Source of the DNA: Isoetes taiwanensis | Lineage: Eukaryota; Streptophyta; Lycopodiopsida; Isoetales; Isoetaceae | NCBI GenBank assembly: GCA_021234155.1 | Contig: JAJEKV010000002.1 | Location: forward strand, 1,208,164-1,272,163 | DNA: 64,000 nucleotides | Direction of reading: 5' to 3' | In this document: positions 1,146 through 48,787 of the stretch, one piece after another | Layout: every line of letters starts with the position of its first letter | Position numbering within the stretch: the first letter of the stretch is position 1 | The notes under the pieces: generated by a model | The model's database searches: none | Told to the model about the DNA's origin: nothing | What the model saw: only the letters and a program-made list of their open reading frames with translations | Made by a program: the position numbers and the translations under genes

Positions 1146-1560
1146 TTTGTAATGACCCTTCTGTGAAACAGGCCTTAGTGCCTTTGAAATGTAATGGTTG
1201 TGCCGACCCTATAACACAGGTCTTAGTGCCTTTTATAATATATGATGGCCTTGTGCCTTTCTGAAGTATTCTGGTATTATTTTCTGTTTTAATCAATTGG
1301 TTTTGTAATACCTTTTTATTATGATTTCAGTTTAATCCAGGCCATGTGCCTTTTGTTTAATCCAGGCCTTAGTGCCTTTAATTGTAATGGCCTTGTGCCG
1401 ACTGTAATCCAGGCCTTGTGCCTTCTGTAATCCAAGCCTTAGTGCCTTCTTTAATGTGGATGATGGTCTTGTGCCTTTCTGTAAATTTGTGGTTTTGTTA
1501 TACCTTGTGCCTTGTGTAAATTTGTGCCTTGTGTCTTTTTCTAATTCTGTTTTACCTTGG
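1146..1560. repeat. Degenerate minisatellite, GGCCTTGTGCCTT-type units
   Basis: About a dozen imperfect copies of a short unit with core AGGCCTTAGTGCCTTT or GGCCTTGTGCC, separated by variable T-rich spacers such as TGTAATCC. Spacing is about 20-40 bp. The array lies just downstream of the minus-strand transposase remnant that ends near 1701, so it may be part of that element's terminal region, but I could not find the element's ends. Confidence 0.7.
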
Positions 1561-1700
1561 AATTCATTCAACATTCGAGTACAAAATTGCATGGCTGAAG
1601 CATCAAAATGAGAATGCAAAATCTGAAACTTCTTTATATTCATAAAAGTACCTATCTGATTACCCTTTACACAATTGCTCTTTCCACTATTCCAACAACG

Positions 1701-3557
1701 TTAGGAAGCCTCTCTAGAATATCTTGTTCTTCTTTGGCACTTAGAGTGTAAACCACTCCCCTTAACAAAGCGTGCTTTGCTTGAACCAACCCCGACTTTG
1801 TTCTTTGCAACTTGAGTGACATAAACAATTGCTTTATTTCCTCTACAAAACTTGTAGCTGGATTTACAATTCACCAACTTCTCATAGTATGTCCCTTCTA
1901 TGACCTCATCCCCTTTCACAAACTTCTGCCCTTGCATATCTACAAAGTCTTCTAACACCAAGTACTTAGCTTTGGTACATAGAATAAGGTAGAATTTCAC
2001 ATTTTCATGATTGTTATTTGGAGCCACCACTGCAAAGACATCACCTATAGATACTTGCATGCTACATAAGTCAGCGCTACCAATATATGCTTCTTCTCCT
2101 TCATCATGTACTTCTTCTTCTTCAATAATAGCTTTGATGGGCTGTACCACAACTAATTCAAACATCTTAGTATATGATACATTGGGGCAAGATTCCCAAT
2201 TCAAATCTAAACAATATGTGCAAAAGCAAGAGAGGTTTCTGACCTGTAAATGTGTCATGTGATTTGAACACCCATGGAAACAATGAAGGTTTCTAGATCC
2301 TTCAATGGGGACGTTAACTTCCCAATCGATTTTTCTGTCCACTTGTCCTGTTTCAACATCCCAAAAGTTCTACTTACAGTTTAAATCTTCTTTTTATATG
2401 TTGTGGGTGTTTTGTTGACATGTCTTTGCTTTAGCCATTCCACCACCTCGTGTGCATTGGTCATCTTGCCGCCCTTCAACCGTGCTTGCTCTCTCAAAGC
2501 CCTCTTTATTAATGCTCCTCGCACCATCATGTTCTCCTTCCCATGGCGAGCACCAAAAGTTCCACATCATGTCTAATCCTGTTAAAGATTTGAATCTAGC
2601 ATCAAAGTAAAATGATTTTTCACCTTTGAATTGTGAGGCTGCACCATCTGAGAAGACATAATGCTTCTTCAAAGTGATTTCCTTCTCTTGCATCCAATGA
2701 TTGTGTAAGAGAAAGCAATGCTGCACAAACAAAGAATCATGTTTTCTGTCATCAGATATATAAAAATGTTCTTCCTTGATCATTTCTTGTGTCTCAGGAT
2801 CCCTTCTATATGTGAGGTGCACAAGAATAGTGATCTGCTCATTATGCCAATGCTTGGACTGGACTTCGTTCTGCTCCTTGAAAGAGTAATTCTCTGCAAA
2901 GTCAACCACTGATACAATAGTATCATCAGCAAACATGTTCAGTAGTTGTCTAAATATGGCTTGCTACCATTTATACCTGAAATTATGTGTCACAAACTCC
3001 TTTGCTTTAGATCTGAAGGTTTCCATCAAAACATTGGGTGAAGTCTGTAAATATTGATGCTCAATTCTTTTTTTGGGTTTGCCATTTTTATCCTTACCAA
3101 TTTCAATGTAGTCTATGTTCTCGCAAGTGATTTTTGAGGTACTGTCCTTTGTTTCTTCTTTTGGACACCTTTCCATTTTGTCCACACCACATTTGCTGCA
3201 GGTTCCTGACAAGCATGCTTCATTGTGCCACTCCTCACCTTCATGCTTTGGGCAAACCATGCTTCTCCACATGTCACTGTTAGACTGCCAAACATGTCTT
3301 GCTGCATTGCACCCTACTTGGCTTGTCGTGTGGTCACATATCTTGCACTCACAGGTGCAATCTGCACCGTGCACCATGGACTTTTTCGTCATGTTCTTCA
3401 CCCCTTCCCTCAGCATTGACATCCTCTCATGATAGATGCAACAACAGGTATTGAATTCAGATAGCTTTACAACAAAGTAAGGCTTTAATTTCTTGAAGGC
3501 TTTCTGCTTAATTTGAACATCTGGATTGTCTTGCTTGAAACTAGTGAAGAATTCTGT
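1701..3557 (-). pseudogene. DDE-type transposase remnant, catalytic and C-terminal part
   Basis: Three consecutive minus-strand reading blocks (3557-2964, 2963-2394, 2342-1701) form one protein. The first has Cys/His-rich segments (CECKICDHTT, CPKHEGEEWHNEAC, CSKCG) after a stretch of the form 'F..LKPYFVVKLSEFNTCCCIYHERM'. The second carries DFAENY, then DDRKHDSLFVQH, then FSDGAASQFK, then W-F-CSPWEGEHDGA. The third has RNLHCF and a Cys-rich SCFCTYC...SCPN block. The same order of motifs is known to me from uncharacterised transposon-like proteins of animals and some plants; the D of DFAENY, the D of SDGAASQ and the acidic residue of GEHDGA are good DDE candidates. I cannot name the superfamily. 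An in-frame TAG at 2964-2966 separates blocks one and two, and further breaks lie between 2342 and 2394, so it is a pseudogene. A splice acceptor-like CAG lies at 3558-3560. Confidence 0.65.
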
Positions 3558-4103
3558 CTGGAGAATAAGAATAGAAAACTACTTAGTAAATGCTACTAGA
3601 AAAAACAACTGCTAATGAATAGCAACTTAGAACTAATTACTGATTCCATTAGCATTACAACATAACCCTTAGCAAACCAAACCACTAACCAGTGCTAGGA
3701 CATTGAGATGGAAGTATTGCTAATCTGTAGTGGTAGGTGGTGCTTCACTAACTACAGATTAAGTTTAGTGCTAACATTGACAAAATTACTAACAGTGGAA
3801 CAACATTAACGAAATTAGTAATATTAGCACTGTCATTTACAAAATCACTAACAGTGGCACTAACATCAACACAATTACTAAACGTGGCACCAACATTATA
3901 AAGGTGAGAAACCTTAGCACTATATCAAAAAATGATCCATTATCAACCATCAATAGCACTAAGACTTGCTACCACGAGAAGAACGTGCAGAGTAATTCCA
4001 TTAGCAGATTATATTAGAATCAATACTTCAAAACTTATAAAAAATATTAGTATTAGTAAACGTGAAAAAGACTTAGTAAAAAACTGATCTACAGATAGTA
4101 TAC
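3558..4103 (-). other. Probable intron of the transposase remnant, with a 30-bp minisatellite
   Basis: On the minus strand a GTATAC donor (4098-4103) and a TTCTCCAG acceptor (3558-3565) bracket this AT-rich non-coding block, which lies between the N-terminal and catalytic reading blocks. It contains four diverged tandem copies of a unit of about 30 bp near 3773-3895 (pattern AACATTGACAAAATTACTAAC AGTGGCAC, written here in two parts). Confidence 0.5.
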
Positions 4104-5742: not shown

Positions 5743-6299
5743 TATATATTCCCCACCAAGTGGATCAATCCTCTTGATACCAAAGAGTCACCGCATCACT
5801 ACTTTCAAACATAATGAGAACAAAGTTTTTGCCAACTTGATGGATTTGGAAAGGAGGAAAGGCGTCGCCGCCTGCTCGCCGAGACAACCAAACACGGAAC
5901 CGTGAAAAAATCTAAATAGCCATCAGTAAAAAACCCAAGAACTGCACAAGAAGATAGGTTCTCAGCACATTTAATATGAAACAAGATTGCGTATTAAACG
6001 GGAGCAAATCATTGAAACGAGAGCAAAAGGAATATTCCTCAAAGATTCCCTTTTTTTTTACAAAAAAAGGGGTAAAACGAGGTTAAAACAAAAAGATGCA
6101 TGAAATTCTATTTTGACCCCCCCCCCCCAAATGACTAATTTTTTTTTTTTTGCAAAAAGAATTGACTTTTTAAAGTGTCACTTTTCTTTAGCAAATAGAA
6201 TGTTCTTCAAGTATGTTTAAAGAGAGAAACTCTAATTTCGTAGGGATAAAATATTTAACAAAAATTGAAGTAAGTCTCAGAATCCAAACTGTAGTATTC
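5743..6299. other. Gene-free stretch with homopolymers
   Basis: Nothing coding recognised. It contains a C run at about 6117-6128, T runs near 6050 and 6139, and the near-repeated words TTAAACGGGAGCAAATCATT and TTGAAACGAGAGCAAAAGG (5994-6030). Confidence 0.5.
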
Positions 6300-8640
6300 T
6301 CAAAATTTGAAGATAGAATCTTCATATTCACATGCAAAATTTACGCTCTTTTCTAAGACTCGGTTATGTGCAAAGTGTGAGGAGGATGAGAGAGGGATCC
6401 AGGCGTCTTCATATTCATTTATGCCATCGTCATCACCTTCACTTCTTTCACTTGTCATCCGAGGAAGTGCTTGAGTTATCTTCCTCATCACTATCAACGC
6501 AGACGGTGAAGCATTGTCACCCACCTTCTTCATCATCTTCTTCGTAATTACAAGCTTTTTTAAGCAAATTGATAGTCTTAGGCGTAGACGATTGTCAGAT
6601 TTCAATTTAAAAATCATAGCACAAAATAGTCACGCCATTAAGGTTATTTCGTCCCTACAACCCACCTTCTTGGACTTTCTCCTTTCCTTGGCTTCTCATT
6701 TCTAACTCATATCTACCTTCAAAAGCATTTTCTCGAAGGTGTTGCAAGCCAATGAATCTTGAGTTTAGTGACTCGGCCTTCCTCCTTGATCAGGTCAAGC
6801 ACTTTTACTATCCAGCGGTCCGCCCGGTTCCTTTGTCATCCTCCTCGGTCCTAAGAGCAATTAGCATACCTTTGGTAATTTCTGTGATATTACCTTGAGG
6901 CTCATTCATAGTCTTTGGTCCGAGGGTATGACTCGGTCCTCCTGGCCCTTCTACTCTCTGCAAATGTAGCCTTTGCTTGGACTCCTCACGCTTTGGGGGT
7001 TGATGGAAGGTGTTAGGCCATTGAAATGGTTCTTGCAACTGTCTTAGAGCTATATTTTGTACAACAATTTTACGCTCGAGAAAGAAATTACTCCACCACA
7101 TCCGATCTTCTTCTAAGAAGTACTTAAAGCCTCGAGGAAATTCCATTTTCAATGGCTTTTAAGGATGACTCACGGTGCACTTTTTTCCTTGGACTCCTTA
7201 GGATTTTTGAGAGGAAGTTGTTCAAAGCTCTATGAAGGAAGATCCGAATATATTTACAGGCGTAATCCCTCCGGTGGACTCCAACCTTAGTTGTGGTATA
7301 CTTCTTCCCTGTAAGAAGCTTTGGCCATCCTTCAAGTAGAACTTGATATGATGATCCAAAGGTGAGATCATTCAACTTGTTCACCCTTTGTTCTCTGTTT
7401 GAACGTTGAGAGAAAACAAACTCTCTAAAATCAGCGATCTCTTTAAGAAGATCGACCCTTCGGAGTAGGAGTGTAAGAATCTTCAATAATTTGAACTAAA
7501 GAAGGAAGACGGAAAGCCTTCTTCCTTTCTAAGGCGCATGAAAATCTCTTTGAACATTTGGTCAATCTTGATCATGAGTGTGGCCTACAAGTAAGAAACC
7601 GAGCTTCACTTTTCTAAAGATCCCTAGCTCCACTAACATGGCACAGTACGCAAAGAGTGTTTGATTCTTGTTCTCCCTTGTAGTATTGTCAAGTTGCAGA
7701 TAAAGCACTGGTGGTAATTGCTCTTGCTCGCACAGGACCTTGTTAAGAATTGTAATTGTGAGGTTCGTCACCATGCAAGTTTGGATACGTCCAAAAAATA
7801 CTTTGCACTTTAGACTTCCTTTTGAAGACCATAGCTCCTACAAGGTGGACCTTAACAAAACATTCCTCCGCACATCCTTAGGAATGTTCAAGAAATGTGG
7901 TAGAGTTGTTTTTTGTCCATTCCATCAATCACAAATACATGTATTGCAGTGGGCGTTCAAGAGCTTTTTTCTATGCTTGGCAAGCTTTCTTCTCTCTGTT
8001 GCTTGTTGTTCCACGATGTCCGGCAAGGTTCTCGCTGCACAATATCGTAGAAGAAATCAGTCAAAACATTTTCTCTCAAACAAGTGAGATTGGAGAACAT
8101 GAGCTTTACTTCTTTCGACCTCTGTCTTTGCAGTTTCTCGTTGACTCTTTAATTCTGCACACCTCGAGCAAACAGACATTCTATGTTTTCTAGGAATTTT
8201 CACAAGACCGAATTCACTTTTCCACAGTCTGGTGAAGTGTGAGTAAGAGATGTGTCAAGTCGAGTGCAAGTCTCTTTGTACTCATTAAAAACATCTTTTT
8301 GGTGATGTTATCGCTAAATGATACATGTTGTCATTAGGTAGCTTCTCACATGTTTCTCTAAAATATTTCTCCATCCATGACACAGCAGCAAGGGCATGCA
8401 TGGTTACAACTCTTCTTGGCCCACAATGATCATCGATTGCTGGATTTTTGTCCAGTCTTTTGTGTATTCTAGACATTCTGGTGGACCCTAAACGGTGGAC
8501 AACCATAAAGCATTCGGCAAACTGCTTGACGGTTAATGTAGTGCAAAAGAAGGTGTTATGCGGTCTGGTCTTACATGATAAGCTAAGTAGGCATTCAGTG
8601 CGCCAATGTCATGGAATCAGAAGTTGTCTCTAACCGCTTT
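6300..8640 (-). pseudogene. DUF7869-type transposase remnant
   Basis: Reading 5' to 3' on the minus strand: 8560-8285 encodes KQFAECFMVVHRLGSTRMSR ... AVSWMEKYFRETCEKLPN; 7774-7562 encodes LPPVLYLQLDNTTRENKN followed by LGFLLVGHTHDQD; 7558-7124 and 7152-6808 cover the downstream part. The block 'LQLDN..RENKN...FL.VGHTHDDID' is the signature of DUF7869 proteins, which occur as transposase-like genes in plants and animals. The reading frame breaks directly after VGHTHDQD: the next frame continues IDQMFKEIFMRLRK. There are several further breaks. The acidic, Ser-rich frame 6617-6300 probably is the tail. The copy cannot make an intact protein. Confidence 0.65.
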
Positions 8641-8711
8641 CGTAATTTAGCCATATTAAATCTGTTGATGCAACCCAGCATTTAGTTCTCAAAAGTCTCC
8701 TCATTTTGTGT

Positions 8712-9096
8712 TCATCCATAAGATTTCTTCTTCTTCAGGAGCACCGCCCTCAAACCAAAATCCACCTTGAATTTCTTTGAAGATTGGCTTGAGAACATGT
8801 AATCTCTTTGTTCCTCGTTGGTGTCTTCATCTTCTGATGAAACTTCTACTCTGGGGGTGACTTCCTCTGTCCTGAGTGGTGTGTGTTTGTAGAAAAGCAG
8901 ACCACGTGAAGTTGTTCCCGGAATAGGGCGGGGTGCAAGTGTTAAAAAAGGATGGTGATGGCCCATAAGAGGTTGTGGCATCAATTTGTTCTTGACCATC
9001 TTGAAAAGGAGTTCTTGCAACATCTCCTTTAGAAGCGGACTGGAATTCTGCAAATCCATGTGTCACAAAATCGTTGTTGTGTGAAGAGGAGTGCAT
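8712..9096 (-). pseudogene. Possible N-terminal region of the DUF7869 element
   Basis: Two overlapping minus-strand frames (9096-8827 and 9059-8712) lie just upstream of the DUF7869 remnant in the same orientation. They are low-complexity, Pro/Ser/Thr-rich, and the second ends in an acidic stretch VEVSSEDEDTNEEQ before a basic tail. Such a disordered N-terminus is common in these proteins, but no domain is recognised; assignment rests on position and strand. Confidence 0.3.
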
Positions 9097-9189
9097 CTTT
9101 GAGCGTCGTCCTCATTTGTAGTGAAGTCCCCGTGAGAGAAATTGTAGTGAATCTCACAGTCTTCGTGTTTTTCTGTGTTCCTTGTGTTT

Positions 9190-9664
9190 TTACCTAAGAG
9201 GCGAAACTACAAAAGGGGGAGTAGCTTGTTCTTGAGCACCCTTTGTTGTGGAGCTTCTGTGGGGTCCCGGATGGAACAAAGGGTGGTGGCAACCCTCGCC
9301 CGAACTGGTGGTGATTCTTTGGAAGGAGATGCGGTGTCTTTCTCTGAGGACTTGGTGGCAGTTGGAAGGGTGGTGGAAGTCTGTTATGTCTTTGGACTCG
9401 GTGTGTCTTGAAAGCAACAAACGATGAAGCAGAGGTAGAGTCTGGAGAATGACGGTCTTCACTAGAAATGACGTTGTTCCCCAAGCGTGTCCTCCGGAAC
9501 CGACGAAGCTTGAGGACAACAAAAGGTGGTGGAAGCTTGTTCAAGCGGTTGCTCATCTTGACAACTGCAAAATAGTAAAGAGATTTTGAGAAACTTTCAG
9601 AATGAGCTTTTCTTATTCCCATACATAATAATAAGTACAAGTAGAAGTTCCAAAGACTAATCAA
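9190..9664 (-). other. Pro-rich open frames, unassigned
   Basis: Overlapping minus-strand frames (9664-9194, 9522-9190) contain the repeated words LPPPFV and RLPPPFQLPPSP. The underlying DNA has recurring ACAAAAGGTGGTGG-like words (9518-9531, 9281-9293), so the frames may simply reflect a short repeat. I would not call a gene here. Confidence 0.25.
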
Positions 9665-9931
9665 GTGAAAGTCAAAATAAAAGCTGGCTTAATAATCAAG
9701 AGTAGGGATAGTAAAAGTCGAACGCATTCCTCACATAGAAAAAAGAAGCGAAAATGATACCTTTAAACGGAAATTTGGCCTTTTTTCGCGAAATTCCAAA
9801 TCACGAGCTCAAGTCGCCAGCGCCAGCGCCTTCGAATTATAATATTCAGAGACTGTATTCCGATTTACATAGAGAGAACATGGACAGGTCAGTAAGAATG
9901 TACAACGTACAATCATTTGTATGTCTGTTTC

Positions 9932-10145
9932 TTATTCCCGAATACACTTTTGCTTTCACTTTCGGCTTAAAGTGTATTCCGAATACACTTTGGCCGGTCG
10001 GGCGAAAGTGTATTCCGAATACACTCGCCATACACTCTCGTATGATAGTGTATTCCTCTTTAATACTTCACTTTCGAAAGGCCAAAGTGTATTCGAATAC
10101 ACTCTCTCGCCGAAGTGAAGGCGATAGTGTATTCCGGAATACACT
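9932..10145. repeat. Array of phased palindromes (array 1, upstream of ParB-MTase copy A)
   Basis: Perfect or near-perfect palindromes with core GTGTATTC-n-GAATACAC at 9932-9947 (partial), 9970-9990 (10-bp arms, 1-nt spacer), 10007-10025, 10047-10070 (decayed), 10086-10103 and 10126-10145 (AGTGTATTCCGGAATACACT, 20 bp). Centres are about 36-42 bp apart. Spacers differ in sequence yet most are self-complementary as well (for example ACTCTCTCGCC against GGCGATAGT at 10099-10129, ACTTTGGCC against GGGCGAAAGT at 9986-10010). The array ends about 340 bp before the first recognisable coding block of copy A. Confidence 0.85.
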
Positions 10146-10480
10146 TTCGTGTTTTTAGGTTTTAAGAGGTTACTTTTCCATGCGATTTTTAGTTAATCTA
10201 GGCGTTTTTGCTGCATTTAAAGCTTGTTTAGACCAGTTTTTTTGTCAAGATTGCAGTGCTTTTTTGGCATTTTTGTCCTCTTTTGCTCTCTTTTTCCCTT
10301 TTTGCAAGACATTTTGTATTCTGGAATAGTTTTTGGCTACTGTTTTCTCTAACAAGGTCGTGTTTACAAACAATTTGCACAGACAAGACAACAGCAAGAA
10401 ACAACAGAAAAGGCCCCTTAAAGTCGTACAAAACCGCACCTGAGAGAAGGCTTGAGGAGTCACCGCCTACTATCTACGAA
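10146..10480. other. Spacer between palindrome array 1 and copy A coding region
   Basis: T-rich, no gene recognised. It is where a promoter or 5' UTR of copy A would sit. Short frames on both strands (10228-10492) are Lys/Phe-rich with no family resemblance. Confidence 0.4.
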
Positions 10481-11097
10481 AAACTTCCGTGACTCAATGG
10501 TTCTTTACAAGGGTACTTGAAAAAGTAAAGCACTCGACTTTTCTACATATGGTTCGGAGCCCCTCGAACCAAAAGGTGCGATGACAGAATTTGTGCCGCA
10601 TGGGCACCATCCGAAGAAAACGATGAGGTAGGGGGGAGTCCTGGTGGAGGGGAGACTTTCTTTTCGCACATCCCAAGGCTTTATTCATGTTGATGAATCA
10701 TACCTTAGAGTGGTGAAAGTAAATCCACATCCTCTTTACAAAGTATGTTTCTCACTACGAACAAGAAGTCGCCTGTTTTATCATTAACTACGCTCGAATA
10801 ACGAAGCGGGACTTCCCCAAAGCCGAAGTCGAACAAGGGGAAGATAACCCGGATAGCCCGGCGGTGGCATCACCATCCGGGAGTCCATCGAAGTCCGAAG
10901 AAAGGCCACGGTCACCACCACCAAAGCGGCAAAGGCAAACCGCTTGCGCTAAAGAGCCTAAAAAAACAAACGGCTTTGATTGCAAAAGAAGATGCTCCTG
11001 AGGCACAAAAGAAGAAGAAGGGGAAAGGCAAAGCACCTGGTGTTGCTATCAAAGAAAAAAAAGTTGATAAAACATCTGAAAAAATGGAGGAGATAAA

Positions 11098-11721
11098 CCT
11101 GCACAAGTTTGTGCAAGGTGTTATTTATTTGCCGATCCACTTGTATGAAGCTTACCAAAAAATGAAGTCGGGTGAAAAGGCCACCAGGGTTACATAAAAT
11201 TCTACGCCGATCAAATTGAGGAACACGAAGACGTAATAAGGAGCAATCCAAATGCTCATGTGGCCCCAATGGTTGTCCTTGTTGACGGGGGAGCGGTGCA
11301 AAACCCCCCGAACTATGACCAAAACGCAGAGACCTACACTCACTACGTCTTGGGAGGCAATCACAGCTTCAAGGCAAGAAGGCAACTTTACAAAGAGAAG
11401 AAGAACCCGAGGTACCTCTCCGTCCTCTGCGCTGTCTACTGTGGTCTTACCGATGAAGAAGCGAAAATCGTTGCCAACACCCACAATGCTGACAACGAAT
11501 ATAAACTAAAGATGAGCTTCGTCGACAAGATCCGGTTCATGCACAGGGAGTACGTAATTTTCAAGGAAAAGTACGGTGAGGACCTGAAGAAGCCAGCGTT
11601 TTCCTTGGAGCTTAAGGAGGCGTGTGCCATTGAATGCTGCCTAAAATATGACGAGGCCAATAAAAGGCAGTCTCTTATTGGCCACGATAACTGGTTTCAA
11701 TTAGCTTTTAGAGATGGCAAG
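11098..11721 (+). other. ParB-like domain of copy A
   Basis: Frame one gives HKFVQGVIYLPIHLYEAYQK up to a frameshift near 11196; the next frame gives YIKFYADQIEEHEDVIRSNP, and the long open frame 11260-11721 gives MVVLVDGG, YVLGGNHSFKARRQLYKEK, LCAVYCGLTDEEAKIVANTH, NADNEYKLKMSFVDKIRFMH and NWFQLAFRDGK. The sequence 'V.VPI.......I......PMVV.VDG ... GGNH...AR ... V.C.LTDEEA...A..HN' follows the ParB/Srx-fold pattern, with GNH in the place of the conserved G-R/H-R-A region. The frame ends at a donor AAG|GTAAGC (GT at 11722-11723). Confidence 0.7.
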
Positions 11722-11784
11722 GTAAGCACAAAACGTATTCCAGAATAACAAATCAACTATCTCACGTGAAATCTTTTTGAACAG
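11722..11784 (+). other. Intron 1 of copy A, containing a palindrome
   Basis: GTAAGC donor and TTTTTGAACAG acceptor, 63 bp. Splicing joins ...RDGK to IWELQDEIFSMFERGELKSK in frame, and copy B has the equivalent of both sides. The intron contains a half-degenerate palindrome CGTATTCCAGAATAAC (11734-11749). Confidence 0.6.
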
Positions 11785-12014
11785 ATTTGGGAACTCCAGG
11801 ACGAGATATTTTCAATGTTCGAACGAGGGGAGTTAAAGAGCAAGGGCAAGGAGACAGCCAAGAAAAAATCATCTGACGTGCCCAAAAAAGAAATGACCAT
11901 TACCGTCTGGCGAGAAATGCAGGGCTTCTCCGACACAGAGATTCTGGAGAGGCTTCTCCAAAAAGTTGTTGACAAGGAGTTTAGCCTAGAAGAAATGTCA
12001 AAGGAATTGCACAA

Positions 12015-12430
12015 GTAAGATCTCTGCCACAAACTTTACTCTTTAGACGTTAGAGTCCCAAAAACATCGGGGTAGATAGTGTATTCCAGAATACACATAC
12101 CTTTCTTCACATGGGCACCCGTGGTATTCGAATACACAATGCTTTTCTAGAGACAAGCAATGTGTATTCCCAAACACATTGCCCATGTAAAGGAAACCAT
12201 GTGTATTCGAATACACATGTCCTCTTCTAAAAAAGTATTGTGTATTCACACATTGCTTTCTTCGGAGAAGCAACGTGTATTCCCGATACACAATGCATTT
12301 TGTTTAGAGGTAACATCACCAGTTAACCAGTTTGTATTCCAGAATACATTTAGCTTGACTTTTATTTGTTTTTCTTCTTCTTTGCCTTGTTTCTTACTTT
12401 TTAACTCATTGTTTCCTTAACGTCTTGCAG
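12015..12430 (+). other. Intron 2 of copy A, with palindrome array 2
   Basis: Donor AA|GTAAGA and acceptor GTCTTGCAG|CC bracket 416 bp; splicing gives ...KELHNQKNVI, matched by SQKNVI in copy B. Inside are palindromes at 12079-12096, 12121-12137, 12157-12182, 12198-12219 (22 bp perfect, CATGTGTATTCGAATACACATG in two 11-nt halves), 12237-12256 (partial), 12270-12296 and 12333-12348, mostly spaced 36-42 bp. Spacers between them such as GCTTTTCTAGAGACAAGC (12141-12158) are also self-complementary. Confidence 0.65.
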
Positions 12431-12642
12431 CCAAAAGAACGTCATAACATGTCAAACATGTTTGATGGAGCAAAATAAACGTAGAGACATGGGAAAGGTG
12501 CAAGAAACTCTACCCCAGAAGCCACTCGACGAAATTTAATTGTGCAATATGCACCAAATTTTGAGGGTCGGTAAGTACTCTCAACATTCCTCGCCTTTGC
12601 ACACACGATCTCCTTACGGTTGTTGTCATGTTTTTCCTCGAG

Positions 12643-13075
12643 CAAAAAAGAAAAACAAAGACCTTCCCGAGGGCTTCATGCATTTGGTTAGAACAAAGAC
12701 GGGAAGAGGTCGTTAATTTGTAAGAACTGTTGAGTTAGAACCATCCCACTACGAGAGATTCTCGCATGTTTGACCAAAACAATAATATTCAATCATTCAT
12801 GGTGATTGCACGAACCTAGTCCGGAACGGTTAAATACGAGGACTTCACTTTGGTTATTGGCGATCTTCCCTACGGGTTTAAGCTTAAAGACAGCAGATAT
12901 GATGACCAGCCCTTCAAATTTTCGAGTTTAATGCTTTTATTGATGGAATCAAAGCGGATCACAACGGCTAAACATTGGCGTTTAGTTACTTTCCATTCGA
13001 AATGCGATGCGGCTTGGTAGAATCGCTTTCAAAACCACTTTGGTTCTCCAGTTCAGGCGATATGAAAACCTTAAA
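12643..13075 (+). other. Methyltransferase motif IV exon of copy A
   Basis: Bases 12643-13075 encode KKNKDLPEGFMHLV, then (after a stop) FDQNN, EDFTLVIGDLPYGFKLKDSR, YDDQPFKF, ITTAKH and NRFQNHFGSPVQA in partly shifted frames. DLPYG is the form of the DPPY catalytic motif (motif IV) frequent in phage adenine-type methyltransferases. Copy B gives FTLVIVDIPYGFKSKDSC, FDDQPSKHQ, ITTAKH and KNHFGSPEQA at the same relative positions. The exon is followed by a GTAAGT donor at about 13078. A GTAAGTACTC donor at 12571 and a weak acceptor near 12642 flank the preceding intron. Confidence 0.65.
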
Positions 13076-13207
13076 AGGTAAGTCTTATTCGAGAATCGCT
13101 TTTTTTCTCTTTGATTACGTAATGTATTCCCTAATAGTATTTCCCGGCGGTTTTCGAAGTGTGTTCTTGTTTTTGCTAAGTAAACATCACTTTAAATGTT
13201 TTACTAG

Positions 13208-13610
13208 GTACAAAAAACGAACATCAACTACCATGGTGGAGGACCAAGGTTGCTTAGCAAGGTAGAGTACCTTCATGTAGCTTATTGGAGTTTTGATGGG
13301 AAGAGGACCATGGAACACTTCAACACCGCCGCCTTGTCAAAACTTCTCAAACGCCCTTGAGTTTCCAGCAGCGTTACGAAATTGTGGGACCCAACCGCAC
13401 AAGGCGCGGATTGTGAATCACTACCGAAAACCACAAAGCTCATCAACCATCTTCTGGACATGTTCCCGGCGTCCGGAGATTGGTGTGCTTGATGCTTTCT
13501 CCTCGGGTTCTCGGTACTACTATCGCATGTGCACTTAAGAAGGGCCGCAACGTGGCCGTGGATATTGATAAGGATGCCGTTAATTTTGTGAAGATGAGAC
13601 CGGTCGCCTT
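13208..13610 (+). other. Methyltransferase motif I region of copy A
   Basis: After an AG at 13206-13207 the sequence reads VQKTNINYHGGGPRLLSKVE and YLHVAYWSFDGKRTMEHF, then in a shifted frame LINHLLDMFPASGDW, then across two small frame changes VLDAF, GTTIACALKKG and RNVAVDIDKDAVNFVK. A hydrophobic strand, VLDAFS-GSGTT-like glycine loop and DID acidic residue are the AdoMet-binding motif I/II of N4/N6 methyltransferases. The glycine loop is broken by indels. There is no counterpart in copy B, which is truncated earlier. Confidence 0.6.
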
Positions 13611-14192
13611 TTACCTTTTTACCGGATGAACATCAAGAGCTAGGGGCCAAGTCTTCATCCGATTATGCTAAACTAACGCCCTCGTGAGATACAAACCATT
13701 CTCCAAAATACCACTAGACGATGAGGCAACCTTTGCGAGCTTAAAGAAGTAGCTTTAGCTACCATTCCAGAGGACAAGGAGGATAAAAACTCAAGTCTCC
13801 AAAGAAAGGAGCGTATAGAACGTGGCGGACGAGATGGCGAGAGAGCAAAAAAAGAATGAGGAGGACTATGATGTAGATCTTTGACTACTGCATATTAAAA
13901 TTATCATTATTTATTACAATGAATCTTCAATATTGATGTACAACAATTTATTAAAAACATAGTACTTTTTTTTCCTTTCTATTCTGGTGCTTGTTTTTTG
14001 TAATGCTTTCAGTCTCTTCAAGTCTATGCCTAAATTTCGCTATTTTTATGATTTCTGTTTCATAAGTACAAAGTTTTCGTCTAATGATGGGCCAAAATGG
14101 CATGAAAAAAAATGCGAACCTCTAGAAATTCTCAACAACTATCAAAAAAGGCTTATTTTAGAAACTTGGTGTTTTTTTAAAGGGAATCTTTG

Positions 14193-14220
14193 AAACGGGA
14201 GTGATGCAACACTCCCGTTT
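14193..14220. repeat. Perfect hairpin after copy A
   Basis: An 11-bp perfect inverted repeat, AAACGGGAGTG / CACTCCCGTTT, with a 6-nt loop (ATGCAA). It lies about 310 bp downstream of the end of copy A and about 30 bp after a poly-T stretch. It could be a processing or termination structure or the end of a mobile unit. Confidence 0.6.
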
Positions 14221-14320
14221 AATTTGCAATCGTGTTATGAGCTTGATGGTCCACCTCAACCACAGGAATACCAGAAGCTTGAACCACATTCTGACAATCA
14301 GACTGGTAAAATATGTCATC

Positions 14321-29464: not shown

Positions 29465-29918
29465 TAATTTCAAACCTGTAAGCTTGTAAAAAAAGTGTCC
29501 TACCCTTCCCCCCCTCCCCCCTCCCAGACCTGGTAAATCTAATTATGGCAGATTGTTGGATAGATTAGGCATGTAATTATAATCATTATAAAGATTGTAG
29601 TATTTCAGCTCACATCCAATGTCAGGTTCGTGCGACTAGCTTCAAGCAGGATTTGCCAAAAAAACTTCAAATCGCGAACCAAACTTTGAGGAGCTAAATT
29701 CCAAACCCAGAACCTTGTAAAAAGTGCCCTACCCTTCCTCCCCTCCCCCCTCCCAGACCTGGTAAACCTAATTATGGCAGGTTGTTGGGTAGGTTAGGCA
29801 TGTAATCATTATAAAGATTGTAGTATTTCAGCTCCACGTCTAATGTCAGGTTCGTGCGACTAGCTTCAAGCAGGATTTGCCAAAGAAACTTCAAATCGCG
29901 AACCAAACTTTGGGGGGC
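29465..29918. repeat. Tandem duplication of about 225 bp
   Basis: Copy 1 (about 29465-29690) and copy 2 (about 29695-29918) align nearly throughout: CTACCCTTCC, CCTCCCAGACCTGGTAAA, TAATTATGGCAG, AAAGATTGTAGTATTTCAGC, ATGTCAGGTTCGTGCGACTA, CTTCAAATCGCGAACCAAAC. Copy 1 has an extra TAATTA-type insertion near 29575. It ends about 130 bp upstream of the start codon of the gene at 30050, so it lies in that gene's promoter or 5' leader. Confidence 0.85.
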
Positions 29919-30049: not shown

Positions 30050-30614
30050 ATGACAGAGGTAAGATGCTTCGTGCAAATGGAGAAGATTTTGCATTTTCTC
30101 TCACCATTGTTCTATTTTACAGAGCAAGGTTAGACAATTCCGAGTGGAAGTGCCTAAGAATTGCTTGCCTTACAAGAATAGGCTCAATTGGAAGGAGGAC
30201 GTTGATGAGGATACTCTACATAGTTCAGGAGCAATGAACATTGATATTTGGGTGCATGCAGAATTGTATCCTGCTGATTCTATTACCAAAAGAAGGCCTG
30301 ATATGCATTCAGCATCAAGGCCTATTCATTTTGCTTGTAAAGGCCAGGAAGGCTTACTTGGATACTATAACAATCTGATTTCTGATAATGCTAATCAACA
30401 TGTGCAAGCAATGTACCATCAGTTGTTTGGAGTTCATTGTAAAGAGTTAAATGATTGTAATTATCTTTATCACCGTAATAGTTACTTGTCCACAAGAAGT
30501 AAGCGTGTAGAAGAATTAGAGGCTTCAAATCAGAAAGTGCTTATAGAGGTGCATGAACTAAAGCATGGATTGAAGAGAGTTTCAGAAGATAATAATAATC
30601 TCAAAAGAGATTGA
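30050..30614 (+). CDS. Unrecognised two-exon gene with C-terminal coiled coil
   Basis: Exon 1 is just ATGACAGAG (30050-30058). A 64-bp GT-AG intron (30059-30122, GTAAGATG ... TTTTACAG) joins it to exon 2 (30123-30614), giving 166 residues: MTE-SKVRQFRVEVPKNCLPYK, then NRLNWKEDVDEDTLHSSGAM, NIDIWVHAELYPADSITKRR, PIHFACKGQEGLLGYYNNLI and HVQAMYHQLFGVHCKELNDC, ending in a heptad-like coiled coil from about residue 130 (RVEELEASNQKVLIEVHELK). The clean splice, good ATG context and uninterrupted frame argue for a real gene. I know no matching family. It is convergent with the decayed ParB-methyltransferase copy B, whose last recognisable exon ends about 20 bp beyond its stop. The tandem duplication 29465-29918 lies immediately upstream. 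Confidence 0.5.
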
Positions 30615-30710
30615 AGAGATTGACTTCTAATAATGATTAACAATTCTCCCTTGTGCACTTGGATCCTACAGCTTCTGCAATTAAGATACAGAAGAAGCAG
30701 GAAAGGCCAG

Positions 30711-30726
30711 TGTATTCCAGAATACA
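30711..30726. repeat. Palindrome in copy B, downstream intron position
   Basis: TGTATTCCAGAATACA, 16 bp, 7-bp arms around CA, in what would be the intron after the GSPEQA exon on the minus strand (GTTATG ... TTGCAG). Confidence 0.75.
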
Positions 30727-31400
30727 TGATAAGAAGAACATAACTGCCTGTTCTGGAGAACCAAAATGGTTTTTGCAGCTCGCTTCGACAAGTCCAGCCT
30801 GCATGATGGAATGAAACACTATAAGTCTCTAGTGTTTAGCTGTTGTTATTTGCTTCATACCTACTACAAAATCCAAAAACTCTTGATGCTTGGAGGGTTG
30901 ATCATCAAAGCAGCTGTCCTTACTCTTAAATCCATAGGGAATATCTACAATGACCAGGGTAAAGTCTTGTGGTTTGATAGTCCCAGTTAGATGAGTGCAA
31001 TCTCCTTGAATAATAGTGTACAAATTATTTTGGTCAAACAATGTGAATTGCTTGTACTCAAAGTTGCTCTGTACTAATAAATCATCTATCAACAAGTGCT
31101 TTCTCTTCTTTTTCTATTATGACAAGGTGCAAGAAACCCTCTGGTAGGTCTTTGTTTTTCTTTTTAATTTGAAAGAATATCATTCAGGTTATTAATCATC
31201 TAAAGTGACTAGCTAAGAAGAAGAAAATTGCATAACTAGCCCTCAAAATTTGGAGCATATTGTATGTGCGCTCATCAGAAGTTGCAATCGGATACAACTC
31301 CTTACATCTTTCCCAAGTTTCAACATTCAACTGCTCCATCCGCGAGGTTTGACACTGAATAACATTCTTTTGGCTGCAAATAAAAAAGAAAGCTAAATCA

Positions 31401-31416
31401 CGTATTCCAGAATACA
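31401..31416. repeat. Palindrome in copy B, intron
   Basis: CGTATTCCAGAATACA between the SKELHK and SQKNVI exons, the same intron that carries array 2 in copy A. Confidence 0.75.
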
Positions 31417-31758
31417 TTCCGGAAGGAAACAAAACGAAAAGACTCGCTTGTGCAACTCTTTGGACATTTCCTCAAAAGTAAATTCCTTGTCCACCACCTG
31501 TTGTAGCAACCTCTCCTAAATATCGAAGTCTGTGAAGCCCTGAAGTTCCCTCCAAGTTGTAATAGTCATCTCCTTCTTAGGAACATCAGAAACTTTCCCT
31601 TTATCCGAGACTTTGCCTTTCGATTTTAATTCACCACGTTCAAACATATTGAAAATCTCGTTTTGGATATCCCATATTTGCAACAAGAGTAGTGATTAAG
31701 ATGCCGAGACATATTATAGCAGGCAACGAAATGCAATACAGAGAGCTTAAGTTGAGAA

Positions 31759-31776
31759 GTGTATTCTAGAATACAC
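31759..31776. repeat. Palindrome in copy B, intron
   Basis: GTGTATTCTAGAATACAC, a perfect 18-bp palindrome between the FREG and QIWDIQ exons, where copy A also has one (11734-11749). A decayed relative TATTCCAGAAT lies at 31873-31883. Confidence 0.8.
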
Positions 31777-33242
31777 AAATAAGGACACAAAAGAACTCGA
31801 TCTACTGAAAGCTAGCCAACCAAAAAGAAAAACTACTAACAGCTATACACAGTCTATTCAAAACTACAATCCTATTCCAGAATGCTTTAGAAGACGATGC
31901 TTTACGTATCCTGCCTTCTCGAAACGCTAGCTGGAACCAATTCTCATGTCCCACTAGTGATGTTCTCTTGCTTGTTTTATTATACTTCAAACAACATTCG
32001 ATGGTGCATTATTGCTCTTTCAGTTCCAACCACAATTGAGACTTTTTGAGGTCATCCCCATACTTCTCCTTGAATAAAAAATATTCTCTGTGCATGAAGC
32101 AGATTTTGTCCACAAAACTCATCTTCAGTTTATATTCATTATCAGCATTGTAAGTGTTTGCAAATATTTTGCCTCGTCGTCTTCCAATCCACAATACGCA
32201 GCACAAAGCACATTCAAATACTTAATGTTCTATTTTTTCTTGTACAGCTACCTTCTTGCTTTGAAATTGTGGTTTCCACCAAGCACATAATGAGTGTAAC
32301 TACCAGCATATTCCTTATCATACGACTATGGGTCATTACACTGCTCTCTGTCAAGTAGCACAACTATTGGTGTTACATGAGCCAGTGGATTGCTTCTGAT
32401 TCTGTCCTTCAAGTTGCACAGATGGTAATCGCTTCCATTCTTTTGCTTGATTTATCAAGCCTCTTATCCTTGATAGCAACGCCAGGAGCCTTGCTCTTAC
32501 CTATTTTCTTTTCGACTGTTGTTCTTGTGCACTCTGACCACCAATCTCCAAAATTTTTCTTTTCGGTGGACCCTTCTTTTTTGGTTCTTTTGTTTCTATT
32601 TTCCCCACCGGTCATTTTCCACCTTGCCTAGAAGGACCTTCTGACTCGTCTGATCCAGATTTTGAAGTACCTTCAAAGTCTTATTCCCTCCTGATTAACA
32701 TGTGGTAGGGGCTGCTCAATGTCTTCTTCTTTCTCTGATGAACTCACGTCCAACATTTCCGTCTTAGCCTTCTGGACTCTATCAATAATTGCAGAAAGAC
32801 AGTCCTTGTTAATGTAGTGTGTAAAGTACCTATACAAGCTTTCTGGCTGCACCTTAACCAACTTAAAGAACTTTTTTTCCACCACAATGTAACCTTGAGA
32901 TGTCTTGAAGCTCAACCTCCAAGCTTCTCCAGCTTGTGACGCCACCTCATTAACCTCTCCTACAGTCTCCGTGCATTGAATATCGCTAGGAAGAACCTTC
33001 ATTCCACCTAACTTATGGCAGACGTATAGGAAAGTGATTGTGGTGTACTTTTGATCTATGCCCCTAGTCACGTACCACTACGTCTTAAGACACTCAAAGC
33101 TCTCCGGCTCATTGCCTTCATGTCCTTTCTACTATGAGGTTGCTTTTTTATCTTAAGAGTCTTCATGCCACTTGCCTTCTACTTGTCTTGGCTGCAAAGG
33201 AAAAAGAAGAATCTTTAGTTTAACAACATCATAAAGTGCAAA

Positions 33243-33582
33243 ACATATTCTGGAATAATTCTGAGATTAAAAAAAAGTTATGAAATCTAGACAACGCTCA
33301 AACATGTTGCATCAATGATGCTTATCTGCACCAGGAGAGATATATTTGTGAAAAGAACCAGAAAAAAGGCTTCTAGGTAGAAAAAAATGACATTTGAGCA
33401 ACAAAAAACGAAGACAAATAACGCAAAATGCTAGATAAAAGTTACTATTATAGAATACACTTTTAGCTTGAAAGGATAGAAAATGTGTATTCTGGAATAC
33501 ATTTTTGTCTTTGAAAACAAGCAATATATATTCTGGAATACAACCATGCTTTCGAGAAAACCAAATAGATATTCCAGAATAT
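33243..33582. repeat. Phased palindrome array upstream of copy B
   Basis: Palindromes at 33243-33260 (decayed), 33445-33460 (half-decayed), 33486-33501 (TGTATTCTGGAATACA), 33527-33542 (TATATTCTGGAATACA) and 33569-33582 (ATATTCCAGAATAT). The last four have centres about 41 bp apart. The array lies 370-510 bp upstream of copy B's first clean coding block, the same side as array 1 in copy A. Confidence 0.8.
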
Positions 33583-36018: not shown

Positions 36019-38715
36019 TCATTTGCTCTTCCCTTTGCTTTTGAAAATGGTAATCTTGAGTGTTTTCCCAGCATACAACCCCCTGCATATGTGATTTTTT
36101 GTTTTCTTGTCAGCTGATTCTATTAACCCTTGTTTTATCATGAATTCAACATTTTTCACATTTGTATGTTCGAGTCTTTCATACCATATTGCTATGTTTG
36201 GAACTATGGTCATTAGCACTTCCAATGGACCGAGAATTTATTCCAAAGAGGTTACCAACTCTTCTTCCCAAAAACTTCAGTTCATTCCCATCAAAGATCT
36301 TACAATGAGTTCTTTCAAATACAACCTTTACTCCCATATCAGCTAGTTGGGATATAGAAATCAAATTTCTACCAAGCTGGGAACACATAACACATTCTGC
36401 AAATTTACTATTATACCATTCAAGTCAAATAGTTCCAGAATTCCAATATCTTCAATTTTTTGCAAGTCACCATTCCCTACTTGATGTGTCCACCTTGACT
36501 TCCCTTCTTTTCGTTCAGGATTTTTGAGTTGCATGCAATGGATTTTTCCGCTCCACTATCTAAAATCAGAAGATCATTATCAACAAATCTGTCACGAGTA
36601 GCAATAAAGGCTTTATGCTTTCTTACCTCATCCCCCTCACCTTCAGTGTCTTCTTCAAGTAGAACTTCTCTGCTACATTTGCCTCTGAACTTGTATTGTT
36701 TCTGAATCTTCTCCTTCCTCTTCCCCTTGCTGTTGAATTTCCCCTAGCTTCCTTCTCTCTTCCCCTTGAAGACATTTTAAGAGAAGAACAGTTTGATGCA
36801 AAGTGTCCTGCCACAGTTGTAACAATTAATCTCTTTGGTCATTGAAGGGTTATCAATTTTCAAATGTTCATACTGGTTGCAGTTATAACAAGAGCCAAGT
36901 TTACTCTTTTTCCTATTTTCTTCCTTGTCTTTTCCTTTTGCAAATAGGACTTGAGTAGCTTCATCATCTTCCATCACCCTATTATGTTCTATCTCTGTTT
37001 TTAACATTCTTTCAGCCTCCATTCTTGTTTTGGCTATAGTCCTTATGAATATGGCTATATTGCCAAGACTGGTTACTGCTCTTGAAATTGCCAAGACCTG
37101 TTGTTGTTGTGTATAAAGAACTCCTGCACCCTTCAGATCAGCAACAATGTTGTCAAATGTTTGGAAAAACTCATTGATATTATCCTTATCATGAAACTTT
37201 AACCTCCTAAATTCATTTTCCAGCACATCTATCTGAGAGGATACGTCGCTATGATCCTCGCATAGCTGCAGTATGCCCGCTCTGTCTTTCGGACGTTGAG
37301 ACTCTTGAGCATTGTCTCTTTGATTGTTCTGAGGTTCAACCAGCGTGGTCCTGGCTACAAGGTTTGTTTAACAGTACATTGGACTGCCGATGCATCCTCT
37401 TGGCGTCCTATCCCAACGCATGGCCTCCCGCTAAACAAAGGGCATTCCATTTTGGTTCTGGTTGGCTCCTATGGTCGATATGGGAGCGTCGCAGACACCA
37501 CATCTTTCAGGGCATTAATTCATCTCCACGCGGTATTATTACAGTGGCCCAGAAAAAGATATTGACAGCCTATGAGTGTTCCTCCCCTGAATCAGAAATG
37601 ATGGAACACATCTGGATTCAGTATCTTCGAATTGATTCTTATCGTTAGTCTCTTATTCTGGAGTAAGTCCCGGGGGGTTCACCTAGATTATGGGGTATGA
37701 AACATGTGAGTGCACCAAATGGGTTTTTTTATTGCCTCTCTGGTACCGTATACATAAGAAAAATATAACTTTTTTATAGTTTGAATGTCATACGGATACC
37801 AGAGGGAGTGTGGTGGCGCCAGTGTTTGATTCGTATTCATACTGTAAGAGTCCGTCATTTTTGGTGAGCTTCTACTGTTGGGGAGTCTGTGATAATATGA
37901 ATAATATATATTATATATGTAAAAAATAATAGAGATATCGTATATGTATGGAAGGGATTGTCAAGTAAAAGTGTTTTAGGCAAGTACTTATATGATATGG
38001 GTTGCATTCTTTTACAAATAATGTAGTCGTATACAAAGGATTTTTCATATGGAACTGTCGTATACAATGGGTTTTTTGGCAACCTAAGGAATGCACATGG
38101 CATATATACCTATAATAGAGGTGAATCCCCCGGGGAGTAAGTACATTGTGCTCCAGGCTCGTGCTCCTGTGGCATCTTTTTATGCTTACACAGTTAGATG
38201 ATACATGTAAATTTTGTACTTTTTCTCTAATTAATAAACTTTTTGGCTTTTGTCCTTCAAAAAAAGAAAAAAAAAAAAAATCTACCTGGGTGGATGTTTT
38301 TTCTTCATAAGTAAGAAGCATGTAATTCCACATTTGGCTAGGATTCATACCTCTTAGTTTTAAAATTATGCTTGAGCTCACCTTGCTCATAATGATCCAT
38401 TGTGCTTCTCTCATCTTTGCACTATCTGCATATATCAGACCTCTTAACGGGTATGCACTCTTAGAGTTTCTTCATTTGAAGATCCACTTCCTTCTTCTGC
38501 AACAGCTATACCTCTGCTTGCAGTATTCCTTACATTGTTGTTCAGCTCATTTGGTTCTATCAAATCCCACAAGCCCTCTACTTGTTGCAGTGCTTGACCT
38601 TCTCCTTCCATACTTGAAATCCTAATCTCCCTTAAACACATCAATTGCATTTAATAGTCCTGCACCAAATCTGCTTGCCATCTTATCTCAACCTAGCTCT
38701 GATACCAATGTCAGA
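36019..38715 (-). pseudogene. Ty1/copia retrotransposon fragment (gag, protease, start of integrase)
   Basis: On the minus strand a primer-binding site TGGTATCAGAGC (initiator-Met tRNA type, about 38698-38709) is followed by ATGGCAAGCAGATTTGGTGC (gag start). Gag continues as MREAQWIIMSKVSSSIILKL, RGMNPSQMWNY (38414-38300) and, after an inserted L1 piece, LENEFRRLKFHDKDNINEFF (37226 on), two zinc knuckles (SCYNCNQYEHLK; INCYNCG ... AGHFASNC, frameshifted), a protease motif LLILDSGAEKSIA (about 36570), and the pre-integrase part NLISISQLADMGVKVVFE, GNLFGIN, IWYERLEHTNVKNVEFMIK. It ends at about 36019 without reverse transcriptase or a 3' LTR. Several frame breaks; dead. Confidence 0.8.
37236..38279 (+). 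mobile_element. 5'-truncated L1-type LINE inserted in copia gag
   Basis: The plus strand from about 37270 encodes a LINE C-terminus: ETLEHCLFDCSEVQPAWSWL, QGLF, NAWPPAKQRAFHFGSGWLLW, SIWERRRHHIFQG, then a 3' UTR and a poly(A) tail (38261-38280). The pattern 'E...H.LF.C......W ... W.IW..RR..IFQ' is the zf-RVT region of plant L1 elements. Flanking copies ATCTATCTG (37227-37235) and ATCTACCTG (38280-38288) are the target-site duplication with one mismatch, and the copia gag reading resumes exactly across it. Confidence 0.8.
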
Positions 38716-47599: not shown

Positions 47600-47980
47600 A
47601 GGTCCTGTAGTAGAGGCTTTGAACCTGCCATTTGCAGCTCTTAGAATATCGCATCTAGGTTGTGAGGTTGGTCTTGTAGTAGAGGCTTTGAATATCGCAT
47701 CTAGGTAGTGAGGTTGGTCTTGTAGTAGAGGCTTTGAACCTGCCATTTGTGCTCGATAATCACATGCAAAGCAGCTCTTAGAATATCGCATCTAGGTAGT
47801 GAGTTGACTTCCAACCTGCCATTTGTGCTCGATAATCACATGCAAAGCAGCTCTTAGAATATCGCATCTAGGTAGTGAGGTTGGTCTTGTAGTAGAGGCT
47901 TTGAACCTGCCATTTGTGCTCGATAATCACATGCAAAGCAGCTCTTAGAATATCGCATCTAGGTAGTGAGTTGACTTCCA
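47600..47980. repeat. Complex tandem repeat, about 75-130 bp units
   Basis: Blocks CTTGTAGTAGAGGCTTTGAA, CCTGCCATTTGTGCTCGATA ATCACATGCAAAGCAGCTC and TTAGAATATCGCATCTAGGT AGTGAG are repeated three to five times, with some units lacking a block, giving a higher-order array. Confidence 0.85.
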
Positions 47981-48243: not shown

Positions 48244-48787
48244 ATAATAGTTATGATGAACTTGTTTCGGATCGAGTGTATCTAGATAGTTTTCAATGTT
48301 TATATGTGTGTTTATTTTGTGTCATGTAGATGCCATATTGGTCTGAAGAATATTATTTTATGTGCATGTGAATGTTTGTCTTGCTAGTTAAACCAATTCC
48401 ATGTGGTTATATATGTCTGAAGTTAGCTCATTGGTATTTCACTTGTGATTATGTAATTGCGGCCCCATAATGGCTTAACAATTTGCTTGCTTGGTGCTTG
48501 TTGGCACATGTCCCAATAATAGTTATGATGAACTTGTTTTGGATTGAGTGTATCTAGATAGTTTTCAATGTTTATATGTGTGTTTATTTTGTGTCATGTA
48601 GATGCCATATTGATCTGAACAATATTATTTTATGTGCATGTGAATGTCTAGATTGTGTTTGTCTTGCTAGTTAAACCAATTCCATGTGGTTGTATATGTC
48701 TGAAGTTAGCTCATTGGTATTTCACTTGTGATTATGTAATTGCGGCCCCATAATGGCTTAACAATTTGCTTGCTTGGTGCTTGTTTT
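48244..48787. repeat. Tandem duplication of about 270 bp, nearly identical
   Basis: Copy 1 starts ATAATAGTTATGATGAACTT at 48244, copy 2 at 48516. Both run through TCTAGATAGTTTTCAATGTT, CATGTAGATGCCATATTG, CAATTCCATGTGGTT and CCCCATAATGGCTTAACAAT. The second copy has a small insertion (CTAGATTGTG near 48647). High identity implies a recent event. Confidence 0.9.

Follow-up and report, generated by a model that had tools for sequence, protein, structure and literature searches.

Sola1 transposons create 4-bp target site duplications (TSDs). A ParB-methyltransferase gene has been described in a brown-algal transposon of this group, green and red algal cases are cited beside it, and the authors propose that each such protein binds to, and modifies, the transposon encoding it (PMC12477816). 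We analyzed a gene of this kind, copy A, in a 64,000-nucleotide stretch of the lycophyte Isoetes taiwanensis (contig JAJEKV010000002.1, positions 1,208,164 to 1,272,163, forward strand; hereafter the window), where it lies in a DNA transposon, the Isoetes element. The Ectocarpus element Sola1-1_Ec32 likewise carries its ParB-methyltransferase gene on the opposite strand, but it measures 21.5 kb and comes from a brown alga, whereas the Isoetes element is 8.3 kb long, has hundreds of ends and occurs in a lycophyte, with probable fern relatives (PMC12477816). A candidate target palindrome is present in the Isoetes element, whereas the available parts of the Sola1 article (PMC12477816) mention no target site. 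An earlier note on this DNA, made from the sequence alone, knew of no description of such a family in plants; for the kind of gene this is outdated by the algal cases (PMC12477816). In the literature consulted, including the available parts of PMC12477816 and PMC9477723, neither a vascular-plant family of ParB-methyltransferase transposons nor lineage-specific palindrome arrays of such elements were found. What is known, then, is that algal transposons carry ParB-methyltransferase genes; what is added here is a candidate target palindrome and a land-plant host.

DIRS retrotransposons carry a Dam-like domain and are thus transposable elements with an adenine-methyltransferase-like domain, but they are retroelements and are not known to have a ParB part. 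VANC proteins are not known to be ParB proteins or methyltransferases, and the 16-bp sites of the bacterial protein Noc are palindromic. VANC21 removes silencing and binds to repeated motifs in the noncoding stretches of the element encoding it (PMC5735166). VANDAL21 resembles the Isoetes element in that a short motif recurs within the introns and between the genes of the element itself, there in the service of anti-silencing; it differs in that VANC21 induces a loss of DNA methylation and that its motif, YAGTATTAY, is not palindromic (PMC5735166). Noc, which nucleates on its 16-bp sites, acts as a sliding clamp (PMC8429893), and VirB, a ParB relative, counters silencing by H-NS (PMC10676424). 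ParB, Noc and VirB share their fold with a modelled homologue of the element protein, but they are bacterial, lack a methyltransferase and have canonical CTP motifs that the element protein does not keep.

The transposon and its two genes

The element of copy A spans 8,257 bp (window 5980-14236) and ends in 25-bp terminal inverted repeats (TIRs) with ATGA on both sides. The left TIR (5980..6004) pairs with the right TIR (14212..14236) at 22/25 positions, and the ATGA at 5976..5979 is identical to that at 14237..14240. The left ends of three further complete copies resemble the left TIR of copy A, and these copies are flanked by identical 4-bp sequences (TGTT in F12, AATA in F15 and TCAA in F16). 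All four two-ended Isoetes elements therefore carry 25-bp TIRs and 4-bp TSDs, as class II (TIR) DNA transposons do; a fifth copy, F13, was dropped from the TSD count because its left end is broken. In the Isoetes taiwanensis assembly (1,658,258,908 bp, 1110 contigs) the right end occurs at 819 places with at most two mismatches, and the reversed control at 0. Unit limits were sampled in sixteen 10-kb regions and four upstream extensions, in which the alignment extends well past the ParB-methyltransferase gene and stops at sharp ends.

A remnant of a second gene lies on the minus strand (6300..9690, outer limits approximate), in pieces at 6811-7158, 7127-7495, 7565-7837, 8288-8608, 8715-9062 and 9197-9688. 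Less broken copies match the DUF7869 profile (PF25273; E 7.4e-53, 179 bits), and the gene has aspartates in three spaced motifs, VIDGMD, LQLDN and GHTHDQID. From its context, the DUF7869 protein is most likely the transposase. The two genes are divergent, on opposite strands, and are linked in 15 of the 16 Isoetes copies. We conclude that the Isoetes element represents a family of DNA transposons whose two genes are divergent, with the ParB-methyltransferase as the accessory gene.

Between 10.5 and 13.9 kb of the window, on the plus strand, copy A encodes, in broken frames, the fusion of a ParB-like protein with an N4/N6 DNA methyltransferase. The peptides on which the earlier note had based this fusion all lie on that strand and in the order claimed: VLGGNHSFKARR and LTDEEAKIVANTHNADNEY (ParB-like) inside the open reading frame (ORF) 11176-11748, then GDLPYGF in 12820-13020, NHFGSP from about 13033 and a broken motif I at about 13480-13580. 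Exon 1 (10600..11721, start approximate) holds the frameshifted N-terminal beta domain and the ParB-like N-domain, assigned from the fold of homologue P0074. Intron 1 (11722..11784, GT..AG, splice sites by inspection) contains a palindrome at 11736-11747 and precedes exon 2 (11785..12014), the end of the putative ParB-like DNA-binding part, for which residues 337-495 of the homologue model were compared with Spo0J-parS and Noc-NBS. In intron 2 (12015..12430, GT..AG) palindromes stand at 12082, 12125, 12204 and 12335 (at most one mismatch), with looser ones at 12164 and 12277. Exon 3 (12431..12571) is a frameshifted linker that reads NVETWERCKELYP in less broken copies. Motif IV, GDLPYGF, belongs to the stop-broken exon 4 (12640..13078, start approximate), and an intron with palindrome-like sites at 13086 and 13125 (13079..13207) separates it from exon 5 (13208..13880), whose motif I is frameshifted in copy A and reads VLDAFSGSGTT in less broken copies. 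Copy B (30550..33077, minus strand) is an older, decayed ParB-methyltransferase gene with unchanged exon order and loose palindromes at 30712-33582.

Searching the genome with the ParB-like ORF gave 3133 first-look candidates, of which 150 were scored; all 150 had E <= 2e-88 and 76-100% identity, and many were open frames of 450-587 aa. These matches exceed chance. The earlier note advised a look for intact copies; less broken ones were found, and its description of the gene as multi-copy and intron-bearing in a plant agrees with the data, copy A itself having introns. Its wording of a multi-copy eukaryotic gene family needs revision: the gene is multi-copy and of a plant, but it is the accessory gene of a TIR/TSD DNA transposon with a DUF7869 gene and not a host family.

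An order of motif IV before motif I defines class beta methyltransferases. This order, already noted for copy A, was seen there and in all 9 of the 16 copies in which both motifs were found. The concatenated pieces of copy A reached 22.2 bits against N6_N4_Mtase (E 1.5e-4), under the cut-off of 26.7; such weak scores arise because frameshifts and stops break this copy. Less broken copies passed the cut-off, with 66.2 bits for the joined exons 4-5 of L022 and 63.4 and 62.9 bits for single ORFs of L015 and L024, so that the methyltransferase half of the expected profile matches held for these copies. The catalytic domain resembles CcrM-like (NF050803) and phage phrog_67 methyltransferases (phrog_67 E 4.1e-19), but it scores 44.2 bits against a cut-off of 830 for the NCBIfam equivalog NF050803, and its eukaryotic introns are unlike these enzymes. 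The ParB part gave a weak match to the NCBIfam model TIGR03764 (E 0.0014; cut-off 143.75 bits). When the structure predicted for a fern homologue was searched with Foldseek, ParB, Noc or PadC chains took the top 10 places among 165 matches, seven of them at E <= 0.001. Judged by this model, the ParB N-domain fold is present in the protein family. The families to which the gene belongs make its prokaryotic origin plausible.

Within the ParB core (209 aa, 15 copies) lineages share 85-97% amino acid identity but match at no more than 40-63% of third codon positions. Synonymous sites are saturated in 73 of 105 pairs, and over the 29 other pairs with dS > 0.05 the median ratio of nonsynonymous to synonymous substitution rates (dN/dS) is 0.062. 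High protein identity, diverged third positions and low dN/dS therefore indicate long selection keeping the ParB-methyltransferase protein. Across L011-L026, lineages A to E, the ParB core protein is near-identical and its third codon positions are largely randomised. Lineages A and B are 83-95% identical in the transposase region, although third positions of their ParB core agree at 49-55%. This contrast suggests exchange of modules between the two lineages, or else selection for synonymous difference.

Palindromes in the Isoetes and Azolla-bin elements

The 18-bp palindrome GTGTATTCNNGAATACAC has 4,650 exact sites in the Isoetes genome, and its reversed control has 0. In copy A, six palindromes of the form TATTC-N0-2-GAATA occupy the divergent promoter region (9932..10329). 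The 16 copies together contain 269 palindromes (at most one mismatch), 131 in introns of the methyltransferase gene and 110 between the genes. Methyltransferase exons (40.9 kb) have 0 and transposase exons (30.3 kb) have 3; the others lie outside (7, all in L025) or elsewhere (18, in L014 and L018). As in the VANC system, palindrome repeats are concentrated in noncoding parts of their own element. Noncoding TTCNNGAA sites in 14 copies, taken without preselected flanks, are bordered by TA on both sides in 196 of 236 cases and on neither side in 36. Among 148 unique spacings below 130 bp, 93 measure 41-43 bp.

Scanning prokaryote genomes gave eight contigs (L037-L044), all in one metagenome-assembled genome (MAG), uncultured Trichormus sp. 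ERR2144891_bin.1; Trichormus is the genus of the Azolla symbiont. All eight Azolla-bin contigs carry the ParB-methyltransferase; the divergent DUF7869 gene accompanies it in five, and the other three are cut or rearranged. Their proteins are 28-45% identical to those of Isoetes. Ends were sought in two loci, L037 and L044, where the inverted ends begin with AACAC; L037 is flanked by TGTT/TGTT, and at the L044 ends no 4-bp duplication was found. Motif I before the intron reads LFSGTG in L037, L040, L041 and L044 and LFSGTC in L039. Because an intron-like gap splits motif I, we read the elements as eukaryotic; on these sequence features they are probably fern host DNA. The cyanobacterial reference bin ERR2144891_bin.1 contains at least eight eukaryotic-looking transposon contigs, which matters if it is used as a species genome.

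In the promoter region of the Azolla-bin elements a different palindrome is found, TCGATGCNNNGCATCGA or its GATAC variant. It occurs in six of the eight loci and is absent from L040 and L043; 38 of 39 sites are upstream or between genes, and one loose match is coding. Spacings are 31, 41-43 or 50-54 bp in 28 of 33 cases. The MAG contains 28 exact sites, 25 on element contigs and the remaining 3 on two further contigs (control 0); exact Isoetes-core sites number 36, none on the Azolla-bin element contigs. Between the two lineages, then, the palindrome differs along with the protein but keeps its location.

Proposed function and alternatives

Element structure, copy number, domain identity, conservation, palindrome distribution and the lineage difference, all observed, can be joined in one functional proposal. 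The protein is predicted to consist of an N-terminal beta domain, a ParB N-domain, a ParB-like DNA-binding part and a class-beta N4-cytosine/N6-adenine DNA methyltransferase. Its ParB part would bind the element-specific palindrome (GTGTATTCNNGAATACAC in Isoetes, TCGATGCNNNGCATCGA in Azolla-bin) in the promoter that both genes share and, for Isoetes, also in introns of its own gene, and would thereby place the methyltransferase on the element. An N6-methyladenine (6mA) or N4-methylcytosine (4mC) mark, or simply ParB occupancy, would then keep the promoter open against host silencing. We judge this sequence-based proposal, self-binding followed by delivery of a protective methyltransferase, to be somewhat probable. 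A wider formulation, in which vascular-plant transposons possess a co-evolving ParB/parS-like self-recognition system, with a separate palindrome for each lineage set out in the promoter and, for Isoetes, the introns, whose ParB loads there and spreads along the element and whose methyltransferase, of bacterial type, writes a private 6mA/4mC mark against silencing by 5-methylcytosine, is tentative and falls clearly short of even confidence.

Several observations weigh against the proposal. The profile scans of copy A and other copies found no ParBc (PF02195) match at E <= 1, where the earlier note had expected one, and we therefore use the label ParB-like. Canonical ParB CTP motifs are GERR and ENxxR; GGNHSFKARR and HNADNEY stand in place of such motifs. 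The Isoetes core at one mismatch has 5 matches in three of the eight Azolla-bin loci. Palindrome centres are CG in 91, CA in 55 and TG in 50 of 220 cases (together 196/220), as from decay of methylated CpG, and many copies are therefore probably silenced. A scan for periodicity was flat (R 0.69 at 10.5 bp, 0.70 at 10.7, 0.55 at 13.0); the 41-43 bp spacing may be mere tandem duplication of a unit, and we make no claim of helical phasing. Six palindrome clusters at the head of the genome list were sampled: tblastn found element genes in three, and in the other three the element-like DNA amounted to just 216-417 nt. Finally, the outer palindrome arms covary in part (relatedness uncontrolled), which fits a hairpin or cruciform too.

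The most probable alternative is that the ParB-methyltransferase acts on transposition, by marking new copies against old ones, permitting excision or shielding the ends from the transposase, and not on host silencing. Bacterial IS10 and Tn5 are gated by adenine methylation, and linkage of the two genes in 15/16 Isoetes copies and 5/8 Azolla-bin contigs would suit such a role. The palindromes, however, lie in the promoter and introns, with none in the terminal repeats of copy A, and we consider a transposition role unlikely.

The palindromes might instead be hairpins, as DNA cruciforms or intronic RNA stem-loops, that serve splicing, replication or transposition and are no ParB sites. They are indeed inverted repeats with a 2-3 nt centre, 131 of the 269 in Isoetes are intronic, and outer-arm pairing exceeds expectation both in Isoetes (+7, 0.47 vs 0.29; +8, 0.44 vs 0.28) and in Azolla-bin (+5, 0.77 vs 0.51). 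Pairing shows no excess, however, at Isoetes +1, +2, +5 and +10 to +12, and the inner core is fixed in sequence beyond mere pairing. Moreover, 110 of the 269 Isoetes sites lie between genes and 38/39 Azolla-bin sites upstream or between genes, and the palindrome varies between lineages with differing ParB. Taken together, hairpins are a rather improbable explanation. A reading of the palindromes as sites for host transcription factors, for example heat-shock elements (TTCnnGAA) that would let the transposon respond to stress, is very improbable: TTCNNGAA is contained in the Isoetes core and ONSEN is a heat-responsive precedent, but a third heat-shock unit accompanies 0 of the 236 noncoding sites, of which 196 have the TA flanks, and TCGATGCNNNGCATCGA has no such element.

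Neighboring features and significance

Outside the element, a coding stretch of transposase-like sequence (DFAENYSFKEQNEVQSKHWHNEQ), partly rich in Cys and His, lies at 1332-3578 (minus strand); the two of its ORFs that were scanned, 2394-2963 and 2964-3578, had no Pfam match. A DDE_Tnp_4 gene at 59036-59623 (minus strand, E 4.8e-19) and a Myb/SANT-like gene at 55205-55891 (plus strand, E 7.1e-13) are perhaps a PIF/Harbinger-type pair. Retroelement fragments are found at 36777-37367 (minus strand) and 37211-37648 (plus strand), with copia-type gag, zinc-knuckle and zf-RVT matches all below curated cut-offs. Tandem duplications occupy 29490-29912, 47640-47879 and 48244-48785, with units of 229, 46, 76 and 283 bp.

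Plant gene models annotated as ParB or methyltransferase, and fern-like contigs in cyanobacterial bins, call for caution, as they can be transposon cargo. Whether 6mA or 4mC plays any part in the nuclear DNA of plants is a matter of dispute. An element that is present in many copies, has a conserved methyltransferase gene and includes a candidate target site shows where, and in which sequence, these marks might be sought, and two lineages with different palindromes allow specificity to be tested by direct exchange. If the proposed function is true, the element would represent a second design, beside VANC, by which transposons escape silencing in plants, and one derived from a bacterial partition protein.

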